The notes below the pieces were generated by a model that made no database searches, was not told where the DNA came from, and worked only from the letters and a program-made list of their open reading frames with translations. A stretch of 64,000 nucleotides of DNA from Bacteroidales bacterium (lineage in GTDB: Bacteria; Bacteroidota; Bacteroidia; Bacteroidales; GCA-2748055): contig JAIPBT010000001.1 of assembly GCA_021738565.1 (NCBI GenBank), positions 62,001 to 126,000 on the forward strand, given 5' to 3'. This document shows, piece after piece, positions 2,016 through 60,189 of the stretch. Within the stretch, counting starts at the first letter, position 1, and the number at the start of each line of letters is the position of its first letter. The position numbers and the translations under genes were made by a program.

Positions 2016-2150
2016 CCCGGAGCGAATGTCGAATGTCGAATTTCAATGTCAAAGGCCAGGGAATAGGATGGAAGGGGTGACCAGGAGAGGGGGTGACGGA
2101 GTGATCAGGGTTCCTGATAAGTATACCCTAACGCGACAATCGCCCCTGAC

Positions 2151-2228
2151 GAACCGTCGAACCGACGAACTGTCGAACCGTCGAACCGTCGAACCGTCGA
2201 ACTGTCGAACCGTCGAACCGTCGAACCG
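2151..2228. repeat. Tandem octamer array, unit GAACCGTC
   Basis: Nine consecutive 8-bp units plus a 6-bp partial unit fill the uxaE-uxaC gap. Six units are GAACCGTC; the others are GAACCGAC (second) and GAACTGTC (third and seventh). The array ends 18 bases before the uxaC ATG at 2247, so it lies in or just before that gene's leader. It belongs to the same sequence family as the array at 52947-53063 when the latter is read on the minus strand. Confidence 0.95.
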
Positions 2229-51980: not shown

Positions 51981-52940
51981 ATGAAACGAAGAGACTTTAT
52001 TTCAAAAACAGCAATGACCATTCCCATGTTAAGTATGTTTCCTGCCGATCTCTCCTCCATCGGAAGGGAGCTTTTGAAAGGCAAAATAGAAAAAAGGTCC
52101 CTGGGCAAAACAGGCATGAATATCTCTGCCATAGGCTTTGGCGGGATCGTTGTTATGAATGCAACCACCGAACAGTCGGCAGCCAGGGTGAAAGAGGCGA
52201 TCGACTTCGGGGTCAATTATTTTGATGTGGCCCCAACCTACGGCAATGCGGAAGAGATGCTGGGACCCGCCCTGGAACCCTATCGCAAGGATGTTTACCT
52301 GGCCTGCAAAACCAACCAGCGGAAAAAGGACGATGCCAGGAGGGAACTCGAAGAATCGCTGGAAAAGCTTCGTACCGATCATTTTGACGTTTACCAGCTC
52401 CACGCGGTTACATCGCTTGAGGATGTGGACACGATCTTCTCTGAGAACGGGGCCATGAAAACATTTCTCAAGGCGCGCGAGGAAGGCCTCGTCAGGAACC
52501 TCGGCTTCTCCGCCCATTCGGTTGAAGCGGCCCTGGAATTACTGAAACGTTTTGATTTCGACACCATCCTTTTCCCGTTCAATTATACCTGCTGGTACCA
52601 TGGTGATTTTGGTCCACAGGTTATGGAAATAGCAAAACAAAAGCAGATGGGGATCCTTGCACTTAAAGCAATGGCCAAAGGGCCATGGCCCGAAGGAGCG
52701 GAACGTACCGTGGAGAAAGCATGGTATGAGCCACTTACCGACAACGAAGATGCGCGGAAAGGATTGTACTTCACGCTGTCCCACCCGGTTGCTGCAGCCA
52801 TCCCTCCGGGCGATGAAAACCTCTTTGCCATGGCGCTCCGGCTCGCAACAGACTTCAAACCAATGGACGATGAGCAGATCCTCGAGATGAAGAAGAAAGC
52901 CATGAACACAGAACCGCTCTTCAGGTACCCGATGGGGTAG
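51981..52940 (+). CDS. Aldo/keto reductase with twin-arginine-type leader
   Basis: A 319-residue protein. The N-terminus MKRRDFISKTAMTIPMLSM looks like a twin-arginine signal, placing the enzyme outside the cytoplasm. The body follows the aldo/keto reductase barrel: FGVNYFDVAPTYGNAEEM with catalytic Asp and Tyr, CKTNQRKKDDARRELEESL with the Lys, and VYQLHAV with the His. The C-terminal half keeps ALKAMAKGPWP and an NADP-binding-like end. The ATG at 51981 is chosen because the signal starts there; 67 upstream codons are open but unrelated. The 16-bp (two-octamer) repeat array starts 7 bp after its stop. Confidence 0.87.
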   Translation: MKRRDFISKTAMTIPMLSMFPADLSSIGRELLKGKIEKRSLGKTGMNISAIGFGGIVVMNATTEQSAARVKEAIDFGVNYFDVAPTYGNAEEMLGPALEPYRKDVYLACKTNQRKKDDARRELEESLEKLRTDHFDVYQLHAVTSLEDVDTIFSENGAMKTFLKAREEGLVRNLGFSAHSVEAALELLKRFDFDTILFPFNYTCWYHGDFGPQVMEIAKQKQMGILALKAMAKGPWPEGAERTVEKAWYEPLTDNEDARKGLYFTLSHPVAAAIPPGDENLFAMALRLATDFKPMDDEQILEMKKKAMNTEPLFRYPMG

Positions 52941-52946
52941 GTTACT

Positions 52947-53063
52947 GTGCGACAGTGAGACGGTGCGTCGGTGAGACAGTGCGTCGGTGAGACAGTGCGA
53001 CAGTGAGACAGTGCGACAGAGAGACGGTGCGTCGGTGAGACGGTGCGTCGGTGAGACAGTGCG
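52947..53063. repeat. Tandem array, 16-bp unit made of two octamers
   Basis: Seven 16-bp units of the type GTGCGACAGTGAGACG plus a 5-bp partial unit, with A/T and A/G swaps at fixed positions. Each unit is two related octamers. Read on the minus strand the octamers are CGTCTCAC, CGACGCAC, TGTCTCAC and TGTCGCAC, which share the YGWCNNAC pattern of the array at 2151-2228. It lies between the reductase stop and the minus-strand dehydrogenase stop at 53164, a converging-gene gap. Confidence 0.95.
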
Positions 53064-53163
53064 GGCTCAATAGTAGCTGACACAGCATCACTGTAACACA
53101 ATTGGGGCCAGGGAAAAAGTTATTAAATTATATAGTGTCTGTCAATCCAGCCACTATATATAT

Positions 53164-54180
53164 TTAAAATTTCAGCAACAGCTTCATTACTTTGCCCGGC
53201 TCTTTTGCCCATTTCTCAATTGCACCCGGTGCTGAAGGGAGGTCAACAGTCCTCGTAATCACCTTATCAAGGGGAAACTGCTCGTTTTCGAGATAAGAGA
53301 TCACGGCCTGGAAATCATCAATTTCTGCATTCCTGGATCCGAGGATATCCATCTCTTTTTGCACAAACAATTTGGTGGCAAAAGCAACTTCCTCCGCTGC
53401 ATATCCAATACACACCACCCTTCCGCTGAAAGCAACCTCTTCTACCGCAGACCTGTAGGTAACCGGATTCCCGGCTGCTTCAATGATCACATCCGGACCT
53501 GCATCATGTGTAAGTGACAACAATTCACCGTGCATATCACCGTTGACGGAATTGATTACATGGCTGGCACCAAGGGACCTGGAGATCCCCAGCTTATGAT
53601 CATCAATATCTATGGCAATGACCTGTGCTCCCAGGGACACCGCACCTATGATCGCACCTGCTCCGATCATACCGCAACCCATTACCGCCACGGTATCTGT
53701 TGCCTTGATCCTTCCCCTGGCGCAGGCATGGAACCCCACCGTAAGGGGCTCCACGAGAGCAGTTTCAGTCCATCCCAGCGATCCTGTTTTAACAACCTTT
53801 TCCCATGGGACGGCAATGTATTCCTGCATGGCTCCATCTCGCTGCACCCCCATGGTCTGGTTAAATTGACAGGCATTGGGACGACCGTTCCTGCAGGATG
53901 AGCAGGTACCGCAATTCGTGTAGGGAATCACCGTTACCCGCTCCCCGTTTGTAAATCCTGCCGGGACACCAGATCCGGTTTCTTCAATTTCTGCCGAGAT
54001 CTCATGTCCCGGTATGCGGGGATAAGTGACCATGGGGTTTTTCCCCAGGTAGGTACTGAGGTCGGATCCGCAAAAGCCCACGTAGCGAAGCCGGAGCAGG
54101 ATCTCCCCATGATGTAAATCCGGTATTTCGGAATCGCCGGCTTCAATAACGCCGGGCTCTGTTATACGCAATAATTTCAT
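53164..54180 (-). CDS. Zinc-dependent medium-chain dehydrogenase
   Basis: A 338-residue MDR-family alcohol or polyol dehydrogenase. Catalytic zinc ligands are in VGFCGSDLS and PGHEIS; the structural zinc site has four Cys in CGTCSSCRNGRPNAC; NAD(P) binding is in AVMGCGMIGAGAIIGAV. It overlaps the aldo/keto reductase gene by 4 bp and is the last gene of a 6-deoxysugar operon, so it may oxidise a 2-keto-3-deoxy sugar acid or related hydroxy acid in the L-fucose or L-rhamnose non-phosphorylative route. The exact substrate is inference. Confidence 0.9.
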   Translation of the reverse strand: MKLLRITEPGVIEAGDSEIPDLHHGEILLRLRYVGFCGSDLSTYLGKNPMVTYPRIPGHEISAEIEETGSGVPAGFTNGERVTVIPYTNCGTCSSCRNGRPNACQFNQTMGVQRDGAMQEYIAVPWEKVVKTGSLGWTETALVEPLTVGFHACARGRIKATDTVAVMGCGMIGAGAIIGAVSLGAQVIAIDIDDHKLGISRSLGASHVINSVNGDMHGELLSLTHDAGPDVIIEAAGNPVTYRSAVEEVAFSGRVVCIGYAAEEVAFATKLFVQKEMDILGSRNAEIDDFQAVISYLENEQFPLDKVITRTVDLPSAPGAIEKWAKEPGKVMKLLLKF

Positions 54181-58494: not shown

Positions 58495-58740
58495 TCGCTT
58501 CCGGACCTGCAATTGGCTCCTGGCACCTGGCTAAAAATAGCTATTTCGCTGCCGGACAATGTTTGAACCATGATTACGATGATTATTGGATTATGATGAT
58601 TTTCTTTGGTTCGGTGGCAGGGTTACACGGAGAGCAGAGATATTGGAGTTTCACAGAGTGAAGTCCTCCGTGGTTCTCAATATTCTCCGTGGTCTGCGTA
58701 ACTAATCCTTCGTAGTGTTTTGCAACTCCTTTGTGCCCTG

Positions 58741-58811
58741 GTCCCCCAGTCACCAAGTCTCCAGGTCTCCAAGTCCCCCTGCCCTGGCTTTTGGCCTCTG
58801 GCTATTGGCCC
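58741..58811. repeat. Short tandem arrays overlapping the 3' end of the symporter gene
   Basis: Five octamers of the type GTCTCCAA (58741-58780) are followed by four heptamers (CTGGCTT, TTGGCCT, CTGGCTA, TTGGCCC; 58784-58811). Upstream, 58621-58735 reads like other dispersed intergenic DNA (CTCCGTGGT twice). The rest of the gap from 58495 has no gene. The symporter stop at 58750 lies inside the first array. Confidence 0.85.
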
Positions 58812-60189
58812 CAACATACACCAGTCCGGCTCCTAAAATACCGAAAACAATAGGATCAAGGTCCAGCGGCAGATCGATACCCCATATGATCAGGCCCAGG
58901 GCTATGGTTCCTCCCGTTATCATGGATAACAATGCTGCAAACGGGTTCGGTTTTTTGGATACCAGCGCCACAACAACCGGCACGATCATACCGGCTACCA
59001 TGAACGAATAGGAATGCAGCATCAGCTCAAGGACATTTTCCATGCTCAGGGCAAGGAATAGTGCTGTTGCACCTATCACAAAAGTGATTACCTGTGAAAT
59101 GCGCAAACTGTTATTGGCGCGGTGCCGCCTCAGCACATCGGTCAGAATATTCCCCGACGAGGCCATCATGCAACTATCGGCGGTAGACATAATCGCAGAA
59201 AAGTAAGCAGAAATCACCAGTCCGAGCAAGCCCACCGGCAGTATGTTTTTCAGTAGCAGCGGCAGTCCCATTTCAGGATCAATGTTTGCCACCGTATAAC
59301 CGGCAATTACGTCCTGATCGATTGCCACCCTGGCAAACATCCCCAACAATGCACCCACAAAAGCCATCAGGGGGTATTCGAACAGGCCTGCAATGAACCA
59401 GGCACGCTGTGCGGTTTTTTGATCTCTTGCCGCATAGATCCGCTGGTAGAGTGTCATGCCAACGAACCAGATGGGTATGATGGTAAATGCCCAGTTAACG
59501 ATCTGCTGCCATGTGATATTTGTAAGTTTCAGAAACTCCGGCTGCAATGTTTCCCTTATTGCCGGCATACCGCCAATACTGGTAAACGCAAATGGCAGCC
59601 CGATGAGGGTCAGTCCTCCCATCAGGATGAGCCACTGGATCGTGTCGGTGTATATAACAGCTTTGATTCCCCCGAATACCGTGTATACAATGGTAATCAC
59701 CCCCATGACCAGCAGGGCATTGTTCAGCGTCAGTCCATCAAAGGTTGATGAGGCAAGCTTGGCCCCCGCCAGGATCTGGGAACTTGTAAATCCCAGGTAT
59801 CCTATGGCAGAAATGACACCGGCAATAAAAGCGACCCTCCTGTCGAAAATGTGCCCGAGGAACTGCGGAAAAGAATAGAAATTCTGCTTTTTCGCAAGGG
59901 AAGACACCAGCGGAATCAGGAAAACCCCGCTCAGCCATGCTCCCACAAGTCCGGTGAAAAGCAACCAGCTTCCGGAGACTCCCATAACGAAACCAAGTCC
60001 GCCAAGACCGATCGAGAAACCACCTCCTACATCCGTGGCGACTACCGATAAACCAATGTGAAGGCTGCTTAAGTTACGTCCTCCGACATAGTACTCATCA
60101 ATGTCCTTGTTTTTCCTGTAGAAGTGAAATCCTACCCATAGGATCACCGTCAGGTAGAGGGCTATGATTAAAAGATCTATTATGTGCAT
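58750..60189 (-). CDS. Sodium:solute symporter (SSS family)
   Basis: A 479-residue transporter with about 13 predicted helices. GFHFYRKNKDIDEYYVGGRNLSS, SVVATDVGGGFSIGLGG and the sodium-site region SAYFSAIMSTADSCMMASSG are SSS signatures. The last 19 residues (ANSQRPKARAGGLGDLETW) are encoded by the tandem repeats at 58741-58811, so the native C-terminus was probably replaced or extended by repeat spread. It follows a winged-helix gene with a TAATG overlap and is the last gene of the abl operon, suggesting uptake of a compatible solute or an amino acid. Confidence 0.9.
   Translation of the reverse strand: MHIIDLLIIALYLTVILWVGFHFYRKNKDIDEYYVGGRNLSSLHIGLSVVATDVGGGFSIGLGGLGFVMGVSGSWLLFTGLVGAWLSGVFLIPLVSSLAKKQNFYSFPQFLGHIFDRRVAFIAGVISAIGYLGFTSSQILAGAKLASSTFDGLTLNNALLVMGVITIVYTVFGGIKAVIYTDTIQWLILMGGLTLIGLPFAFTSIGGMPAIRETLQPEFLKLTNITWQQIVNWAFTIIPIWFVGMTLYQRIYAARDQKTAQRAWFIAGLFEYPLMAFVGALLGMFARVAIDQDVIAGYTVANIDPEMGLPLLLKNILPVGLLGLVISAYFSAIMSTADSCMMASSGNILTDVLRRHRANNSLRISQVITFVIGATALFLALSMENVLELMLHSYSFMVAGMIVPVVVALVSKKPNPFAALLSMITGGTIALGLIIWGIDLPLDLDPIVFGILGAGLVYVGANSQRPKARAGGLGDLETW

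Follow-up and report, generated by a model that had tools for sequence, protein, structure and literature searches.

Introduction

Two tracts of tandem octamers lie some 50 kb apart in a 64,000-nucleotide stretch of the genome of a Bacteroidales bacterium (GCA_021738565.1, contig JAIPBT010000001.1; hereafter referred to as the window). A sequence-only reading had assigned both to a single family of the form YGWCNNAC, which it regarded as a dispersed, intergenic octamer satellite that evolves by unit conversion. This raises the question of whether the two tracts indeed belong together and, if so, what kind of genetic element they represent, how widely it is distributed and how it may have arisen.

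Results

The two octamer tracts of the window

The tracts described at positions 2151 and 52947 were confirmed and extend, as defined by pattern, over positions 2147-2226 and 52947-53058, respectively. Together with a heptamer array in the same gap as the first tract, they comprise the following features:

2147..2226, minus strand: array 1, ten octamers, reading GTTCGWCR on the minus strand and YGWCGAAC on the plus strand
2023..2050, plus strand: heptamer array CGAATGT, another island satellite (TRF)
52947..53058, plus strand: array 2, octamers GTGMGWCR, with GTGAGACR and GTGCGWCR alternating as a 16-bp dimer

Array 1 contains 10 exact YGWCNNAC units (TRF span 2150-2228; 2151-2228 in the sequence-only reading), including TGACGAAC, CGTCGAAC, CGACGAAC and TGTCGAAC. 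Array 2, which TRF delimits as 52947-53063 with a period of 16, carries the units CGTCTCAC, CGACGCAC, TGTCTCAC and TGTCGCAC on the minus strand, just as the sequence-only reading had stated, and is broken by a single off-pattern unit near 53019. The claimed intergenic location holds for both: array 1 is situated between a gene for a UxaE-like epimerase (stop at 2015) and uxaC (start at 2247), and array 2 is flanked by genes for an aldo/keto reductase (stop at 52940) and, in convergent orientation, a zinc alcohol dehydrogenase (53164-54180, minus strand). By eye, degenerate GTGA-type octamers are visible between the heptamer array and array 1, at positions 2060-2115. According to both TRF and a listing of the units, each tract consists of head-to-tail units of a single period, which are contiguous and free of spacers, unlike those of a CRISPR array. 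The window has 17 matches to three YGWCNNAC units in a row, all of them inside arrays 1 and 2, whereas 100 dinucleotide-preserving shuffles of the window yielded a mean of 0.01 such matches and a maximum of 1, with none reaching 17, so that the tracts are far from equally frequent in shuffled sequence.

A dispersed family with a constrained unit

A search of the entire genome (3.98 Mb in 83 contigs) for three consecutive units returned 249 matches (144 + 105), a number that counts matches rather than distinct arrays, as opposed to 0 for the pattern read backwards. The further members predicted by the sequence-only reading thus exist, and the same unit recurs at many separate loci, bearing out its notion of a dispersed octamer satellite. 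In the window and 31 stretches around matches, a stricter pattern picked out 47 arrays of three or more units, and a slightly more permissive one 51. Many of the listed arrays sit near contig ends, and their density looks patchy along the genome. Outside the window, TRF detected no GTKNGWCR array in 200 kb of the genome away from the listed matches, in stretches that were picked once the match lists were known and are therefore biased against arrays.

Both tracts fit YGWCNNAC, but its two central positions are not free. When they were left open, the first was T in 134, G in 98, C in 23 and A in 16, and the second C in 163, A in 105 and T in 3, of 271 units from 49 arrays, a sample drawn from the window and the 31 stretches chosen around matches. 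The family is best written as GTKNGWCR (reverse complement YGWCNMAC). Among 327 in-register octamers of the 47 arrays obtained with the stricter pattern, position 6 is A in 248, T in 62 and G in 17 cases, and position 8 is A in 162, G in 164 and T in 1; positions 1, 2, 5 and 7 look invariant partly because this pattern requires them. GTTCGWCR and GTGMGWCR units, the types found in arrays 1 and 2, are mixed inside single arrays elsewhere (e.g., contig C50 near 54100 and C5 near 18590), which makes arrays 1 and 2 members of one family rather than two, and both types occupy the same slot 5' of the same core sequence (see below). The assignment to one sequence family was therefore correct.

The order of units within arrays follows a distinct pattern. 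In a sample of 36 arrays with 307 units, the longest of which reaches up to 25 units, adjacent units were identical less often than after shuffling within arrays (0.19 versus 0.27 ± 0.02; n=271), whereas units two steps apart were identical more often (0.39 versus 0.27 ± 0.02; n=235), so that arrays tend to be built of 16-bp dimers. This order fits slippage or unequal exchange involving two units at once, while single-unit conversion by itself would not yield it. The proposed evolution by unit conversion thus stands only in part, as the order of the units points to slippage or unequal exchange. The same analysis gave no clear order for the octamer CYGCAWCA (60 units) and the heptamer AACCAGY (37 units), two other repeats from the surroundings of the arrays.

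A composite element within mosaic islands

The arrays lie in islands that hold further short arrays, including the octamers CYGCAWCA, GTCYCCMR and others as well as the heptamers AACCAGY, CGAATGT and others (all names coined in this analysis), and several palindromes. Many islands share a common order of modules, namely AACCAGY heptamers, AACAAAATCA, the GTKNGWCR array, a core of ~40 bp (GTAWATGATCAACGGA...ATAGTATCTGATATAC), a CYGCAWCA array, AATTAARGCCAG and further heptamers. A model of the core sequence alone (R1, built from 25 copies) matched 43 places in the genome. An octamer unit stood directly before 28 of the 29 core matches in stretches that had been selected for their arrays. Because of this selection, 12 further stretches were taken around core matches outside them. 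Among the 16 core copies that these provided, 15 had an octamer unit before them on the same strand, with a slight bias toward such copies because the core profile starts with the last four bases of the unit, and 14 were followed by a CYGCAWCA unit; by comparison, one unit was present in 1.85% of random 68-nt windows. Conversely, a core was located 3' on the same strand in 23 of 51 arrays, 5' in none and only on the opposite strand in 1, with 10 of the cores in this count having seeded the profile. More than half of the arrays, 28 of the 51 with array 1 included, lack a core on their 3' side, and a search of the window with the core and element profiles recognised none beside array 1. For array 2, an extended element profile, which also holds two array units, matched positions 53042-53111 (E 1.7e-5), while the core alone gave an E value of 0.012 in this region. 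The extended match indicates that array 2 carries a shortened, decayed element:

53059..53111, plus strand: decayed composite element, comprising the second half of the core, one to two CYGCAWCA units and AATTGGGGCCAG (extended profile)

With its constant module order and one module of variable copy number, the composite element has the properties of a BOX/NIME-like modular mosaic. Some elements stand head to tail in one island (L158, L179, L170 and L152). Inspection of 29 copies by eye showed variable ends of the element and revealed neither fixed termini nor target duplications. The composite element, the dimeric order of the units, the other octamer and heptamer families of the islands and the restriction to one species among the genomes searched (see below) had all been missed by the sequence-only reading.

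Two further features of the islands deserve mention. The palindrome AGCCGTAGCCTTGGCGAAGGCT and its variants lie within the CYGCAWCA array as if inserted, at L158:452-490 and, after the core, in L254, L255, L256, L259 and L260. In addition, truncated halves of composite elements are found at contig ends, in L262 (from ~560 to the end; end of C78) and L261 (up to ~218; start of C19). By eye, the sequences joined to these halves look like opposite ends of a single insertion, which may be an insertion sequence that entered a copy of the core.

Segments shared between distant loci

Several islands share longer segments with distant loci, including one in the window that borders on short arrays of other island families:

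58556..58770, plus strand: segment 94% identical over 218 bp to L177:5385-5602, an intergenic site on another contig (stretch comparison)
58748-58775, plus strand: short array AGTCTCCA of another island family (TRF, period 8)
58784-58810, plus strand: short array CTGGCTATTGGCCT of another island family (TRF, period 14)

The segment at 58556-58770 lies between two convergent open frames (58494 and 58750), except for its last ~20 bases, which fall within the one on the minus strand. The two short arrays (58748-58810) overlap the 3' end of this minus-strand frame (58750-60189). Among the matches listed in this comparison, the weaker of which may be coding, L158 and L173 are 88% identical over 239 bp, spanning array, core and heptamers. 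The segments in L177 and L173 are intergenic as judged by open frames. Two other pairs, L170 and L260 (93% over 384 bp; small frames overlap) and L207 and L255 (94% over 242 bp), are of uncertain location. Judged by sequence identity, the match between the window and L177 may be taken as evidence of copying between loci.

Siting relative to genes

Of the arrays that could be classed with respect to their neighbouring genes, 15 lie between convergent, 16 between tandem and 10 between divergent genes, based on a crude ORF caller whose frames overlap 12 of the 47 arrays and which left 6 unclassed. The convergent share (15/41) exceeds that among gaps of 100 bp or more (7/67; Fisher p 0.0025), with arrays of one island not being independent in these counts; among all gene pairs it amounts to 26/193. 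The baseline was obtained from the window and 10 stretches not chosen for arrays. Between tandem genes, the arrays share the direction of the genes in 9 cases and oppose it in 7. Such siting is expected of insertions that are tolerated away from promoters, and it speaks against a role in the transcripts of the neighbouring genes.

Restriction to one species among the genomes searched and a different satellite in its sister

Three consecutive GTKMGWCR units occur 171 times in the source genome (53 + 118) but not once in 60 relatives, three of which belong to the same genus. Used as a DNA query, array 1 matched 1 of 61 genomes, the source genome itself, and the core model, whose search filters drop weak matches, gave a single weak match among the 60 relatives (G035, E 3.3e-4). 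When one composite element was compared with the phylum, 4 of 395 genomes matched, the three others by 26 to 33 bases only, in or beside the CYGCAWCA stretch. Going by these searches, the GTKNGWCR family is private to the species among the genomes covered. The relatives are draft assemblies (G001 is 68% complete), so repeats may have been lost in assembly, yet the arrays of the sister species G002 described below were assembled.

Here, 231 bp separate the UxaE-like gene from uxaC, with array 1 in between. This gap measures ~45 bp in G001, 57 bp in G026 and ~234 bp, of other sequence, in G003, and it is absent in G023, where the genes overlap. Inspected by eye, these four loci, out of eight in which the gap was sought, contain no array. 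At the site of array 2, the upstream gene was matched in 7 of 8 relatives, and no match ran on into the downstream gene, so that this site yielded no clean empty counterpart.

The sister species G002 has a satellite of its own. Its heptamers ACTGCSV gave 164 three-unit matches, compared to 21 for the reversed control, and outside G002 they were matched once in G042, twice in G048 (reversed control 1) and in none of the other 58 genomes, including the source genome. Queried with DNA from one such heptamer island, G002 gave matches at 55 places and the other three members of the genus at none. As a candidate core of these islands, a 40-base stretch matched 3 of 15 loci, with L223 and L231 representing the same place, and was dropped as too few. 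In 200 kb of four relatives, TRF reported no array of period 8 or multiples up to 32 above its threshold, although such samples miss dispersed families, given that the 20 kb of G002 among them missed its own heptamer arrays.

Other genomes contain short repeats of further kinds. An octamer array ATTCGCCY of 36 units, with C/T variants of one position interspersed, was seen in the same taxonomic family (G006, L229:1187-1474), and short quasi-repeats with TGATGCGG, CGAACTG, GACTACTGACTAC and similar words in another family of the same class (L196 and L200 of G190, L197 of G113).

Octamer tracts in unrelated genomes and viruses

Tracts of similar octamers also turned up far beyond the genus. A scan of the named genomes with a five-unit pattern gave at least 113 stretches, of which many are homogeneous. 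Since they fit the pattern by construction, they are no evidence of common origin, and a spread of the family across phyla was set aside. Eight of these stretches, with CGACYAAC-type units, belong to Saprospiraceae bacterium SJ15 (L092, L098, L103, L124, L131, L142, L143 and L148), which would appear to be another genome with a dispersed octamer family. Among the other octamer arrays on contigs with five-unit matches, 10 of 22 contain ACYG, compared to 3.3 by shuffling, a difference confounded by the choice of contigs. Four-unit GTKMGWCR matches were found in 7 stretches on 4 viral contigs. Two of these IMG/VR contigs (L245, L247 and L251; L249 and L250) bear several GTGMGTCA arrays, with A/C at position 4 as here. 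The core profile had no match in the viral stretches, and their comparison with stretches of the source genome gave one 35-base match only. A search of plasmids returned one record, which matches the second octamer array only, and no phage record matched. A viral or plasmid carrier was set aside, and the viral arrays are read as probably independent octamer tracts.

Fold, RNA and enzyme searches

On neither strand do arrays 1 and 2 fold better than their shuffled counterparts. For one composite element, the fold z-scores were -2.2 and -1.9, and an alignment of 21 copies had no consensus fold (-1.3 kcal/mol). The second array of the element, read backwards (GTGWTGCR), resembles the first (GTGMGWCR), and the folds of single copies (L179 and L158) are ladders whose 5- to 6-bp blocks recur every 8 bp on both sides alike. 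Across 22 copies, however, pairing between the arms amounted to -13.1 kcal/mol, compared to -11.5 ± 4.4 for shuffled and -10.8 for reversed arms, with 2 of the 22 beating all 50 shuffles. Together with the missing consensus fold, this result led us to reject a conserved hairpin of the two arrays around the core as a general feature.

A search of four loci against Rfam identified tRNA only. BIME and REP/REPIN elements are defined by conserved, hairpin-forming palindromes and a linked Y1 (RAYT) transposase; here, neither core nor arms show consensus pairing, the palindromes of the islands being separate, and the single Y1_Tnp match of the genome, which looks like an IS200-type copy, contains an in-frame stop and has no arrays within the 1.8 kb around it. 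No reverse transcriptase (PF00078) was detected in the source genome, G002, G003 and G006.

Discussion

Collectively, our findings describe one octamer family that is dispersed over many loci of a single species among the genomes searched, occupies a defined place in a composite element, tends toward a dimeric build and is accompanied by segments shared between distant sites. On this basis, we consider the family most likely to be a neutral or selfish satellite that has grown by slippage and spread through the copying of intergenic segments. To the fuller account, a species-private, short-period satellite that resides in intergenic mosaic islands, grows by slippage, spreads by segment copying without benefit to the host and is replaced between sister species, we assign a probability of about 0.68. 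The octamer array would form the 5' arm of a composite element in many islands, and its length and unit variants would shift locally by replication slippage or unequal exchange, often in steps of 16 bp, i.e., two units. Segments of tens to hundreds of base pairs, comprising array and core, may then have been copied among intergenic sites by ectopic recombination, template switching or some transposition activity. Arrays would be tolerated where they leave promoters unbroken, with an excess between convergent genes, and would thus be effectively neutral or selfish. Finally, we infer that the whole repeat set has been replaced between sister species.

One alternative to this satellite is a non-autonomous mobile element (MITE-like or SDR-like), in which the core would be the mobile part and the arrays its arms or preferred target, with a transposase provided by this or another genome. 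The near-constant polarity of the 43 core matches relative to the array is what such an element would produce, and the truncated copies in L261 and L262 as well as the head-to-tail copies in L158, L179, L170 and L152 point in the same direction. However, neither fixed ends nor target duplications were seen by eye, the arms lack conserved pairing and a consensus fold, the sole Y1 transposase match is interrupted by a stop and has no arrays in the 1.8 kb around it, and 28 of 51 arrays do without a 3' core, so that we regard mobility of this kind as unlikely. Still less probable, in our estimate, is a function of the arrays as binding sites of some regulator, nucleoid protein or RNA-binding protein, which has been proposed for the TAACTGA repeats of Beggiatoaceae and the octanucleotides of Geobacter. 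The constrained unit, its regular 8-bp spacing and the proximity of array 1 to uronate genes and of array 2 to oxidoreductase genes would suit such a role, but arrays show no clear strand preference between tandem genes (9 versus 7) and are in excess between convergent ones, they are missing from four orthologous gaps and, as three-unit matches, from 60 relatives, and they exhibit no conserved fold and, in the four loci compared with Rfam, no match other than tRNA.

That many sites of one species carry the same word family, and its sister a different one, could also result from an enzyme that adds the same octamer at DNA breaks in a template-directed, telomerase-like manner. Yet the four genomes searched have no PF00078 match, and the addition of arrays alone does not explain why cores and flanking spacers recur with them, leaving this mechanism very improbable. 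Chance low-complexity sequence or an assembly artefact might be suspected from the YGWCNMAC tracts in many unrelated genomes and from the many arrays near contig ends; given 0.01 matches expected in the window, 0 for the reversed control in 3.98 Mb and a composite context common to many loci, we attach next to no weight to it.

It is tempting to speculate that the members of this genus each build their own set of short-word satellites on array-core-array elements, which are spread by a dedicated activity and wholly replaced between species, as a counterpart of eukaryotic satellite turnover, although we hold this broader idea to be doubtful. The composite element, the 16-bp higher-order period and the differing families in two congeneric species make the origin and turnover of such repeats testable within one genus and argue against a conserved regulatory role, whereas the papers on Beggiatoaceae and Geobacter considered here took such repeats as likely regulatory sites.

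Comparison with known systems

In the literature searched (titles and abstract openings, with most subscription papers outside its scope), we found no earlier description of the GTKNGWCR family or the array-core-array element. Relatives in kind do exist. In cyanobacteria, short tandemly repeated sequences, i.e., intergenic heptamers with small dispersed repeats embedded in them, have reportedly been described by Mazel in 1990 and Elhai in 2008, and some of the embedded elements have a conserved fold. Our system resembles them in its intergenic heptamer arrays with embedded conserved elements but differs in phylum, period, sequences and fold, which the core lacks. BIME/REP, BOX and the neisserial NIME are likewise modular composites with a variable number of internal boxes; their modules are palindromes or longer repeats, whereas those found here are 7- and 8-bp satellites.

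Short direct intergenic repeats have been reported from several phyla. According to the portions consulted of MacGregor (2015; PMC4679880), TAACTGA heptamers occur in marine Beggiatoaceae, cyanobacteria and five Bacteroidetes. Gramella forsetii and A. sublithincola have long TAACTGA arrays with other heptamers, while the corresponding gaps of close relatives are shorter and contain no obvious repeats, and in the BOGUAY genome the heptamers mostly stand just before start codons, in forward orientation (PMC4679880). The likeness to our family lies in short direct repeats scattered between genes. However, the TAACTGA repeats have a period of 7 and one fixed word across phyla, with no core described in those portions (PMC4679880), as opposed to a degenerate word, GTKNGWCR, of period 8 that is part of a composite element in one species and, according to the crude ORF caller, sits between convergent genes in 15 of 41 cases and points with tandem genes in 9 and against them in 7. 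Geobacter metallireducens, as far as the sections seen describe it, has dozens of dispersed sites made up of a few heptanucleotides or tandem octanucleotides (GTTGCTYN, TCTCCGTS[Y]); several octanucleotide sites are paired, and some multicopy families are unique to the species (PMC2700814). It thus shares with our system both the dispersed tandem octamers and the species-unique families. Its sites comprise three to five copies, form opposite-strand pairs and were read as regulator sites or RNAs (PMC2700814), whereas here arrays reach up to 25 units and a core lies between unlike arrays. Further short repeats on record are REPINs (PMC3116915) and, in Xanthomonas and Nostoc, a G-quadruplex repeat of heptamers (PMC4692102).

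The repeats of archaeal Borgs, in the excerpts consulted, are fast-evolving direct repeats whose formation is described as highly genome specific and for which slippage is discussed as an origin (PMC9879509). They differ from the family described here in having perfect units, with 43-65% of the repeats in genes (PMC9879509), as opposed to one degenerate word at many intergenic sites. By analogy, the GTKNGWCR system works like other intergenic short-repeat families, such as the TAACTGA heptamers, the Geobacter octanucleotides and the Borg repeats.
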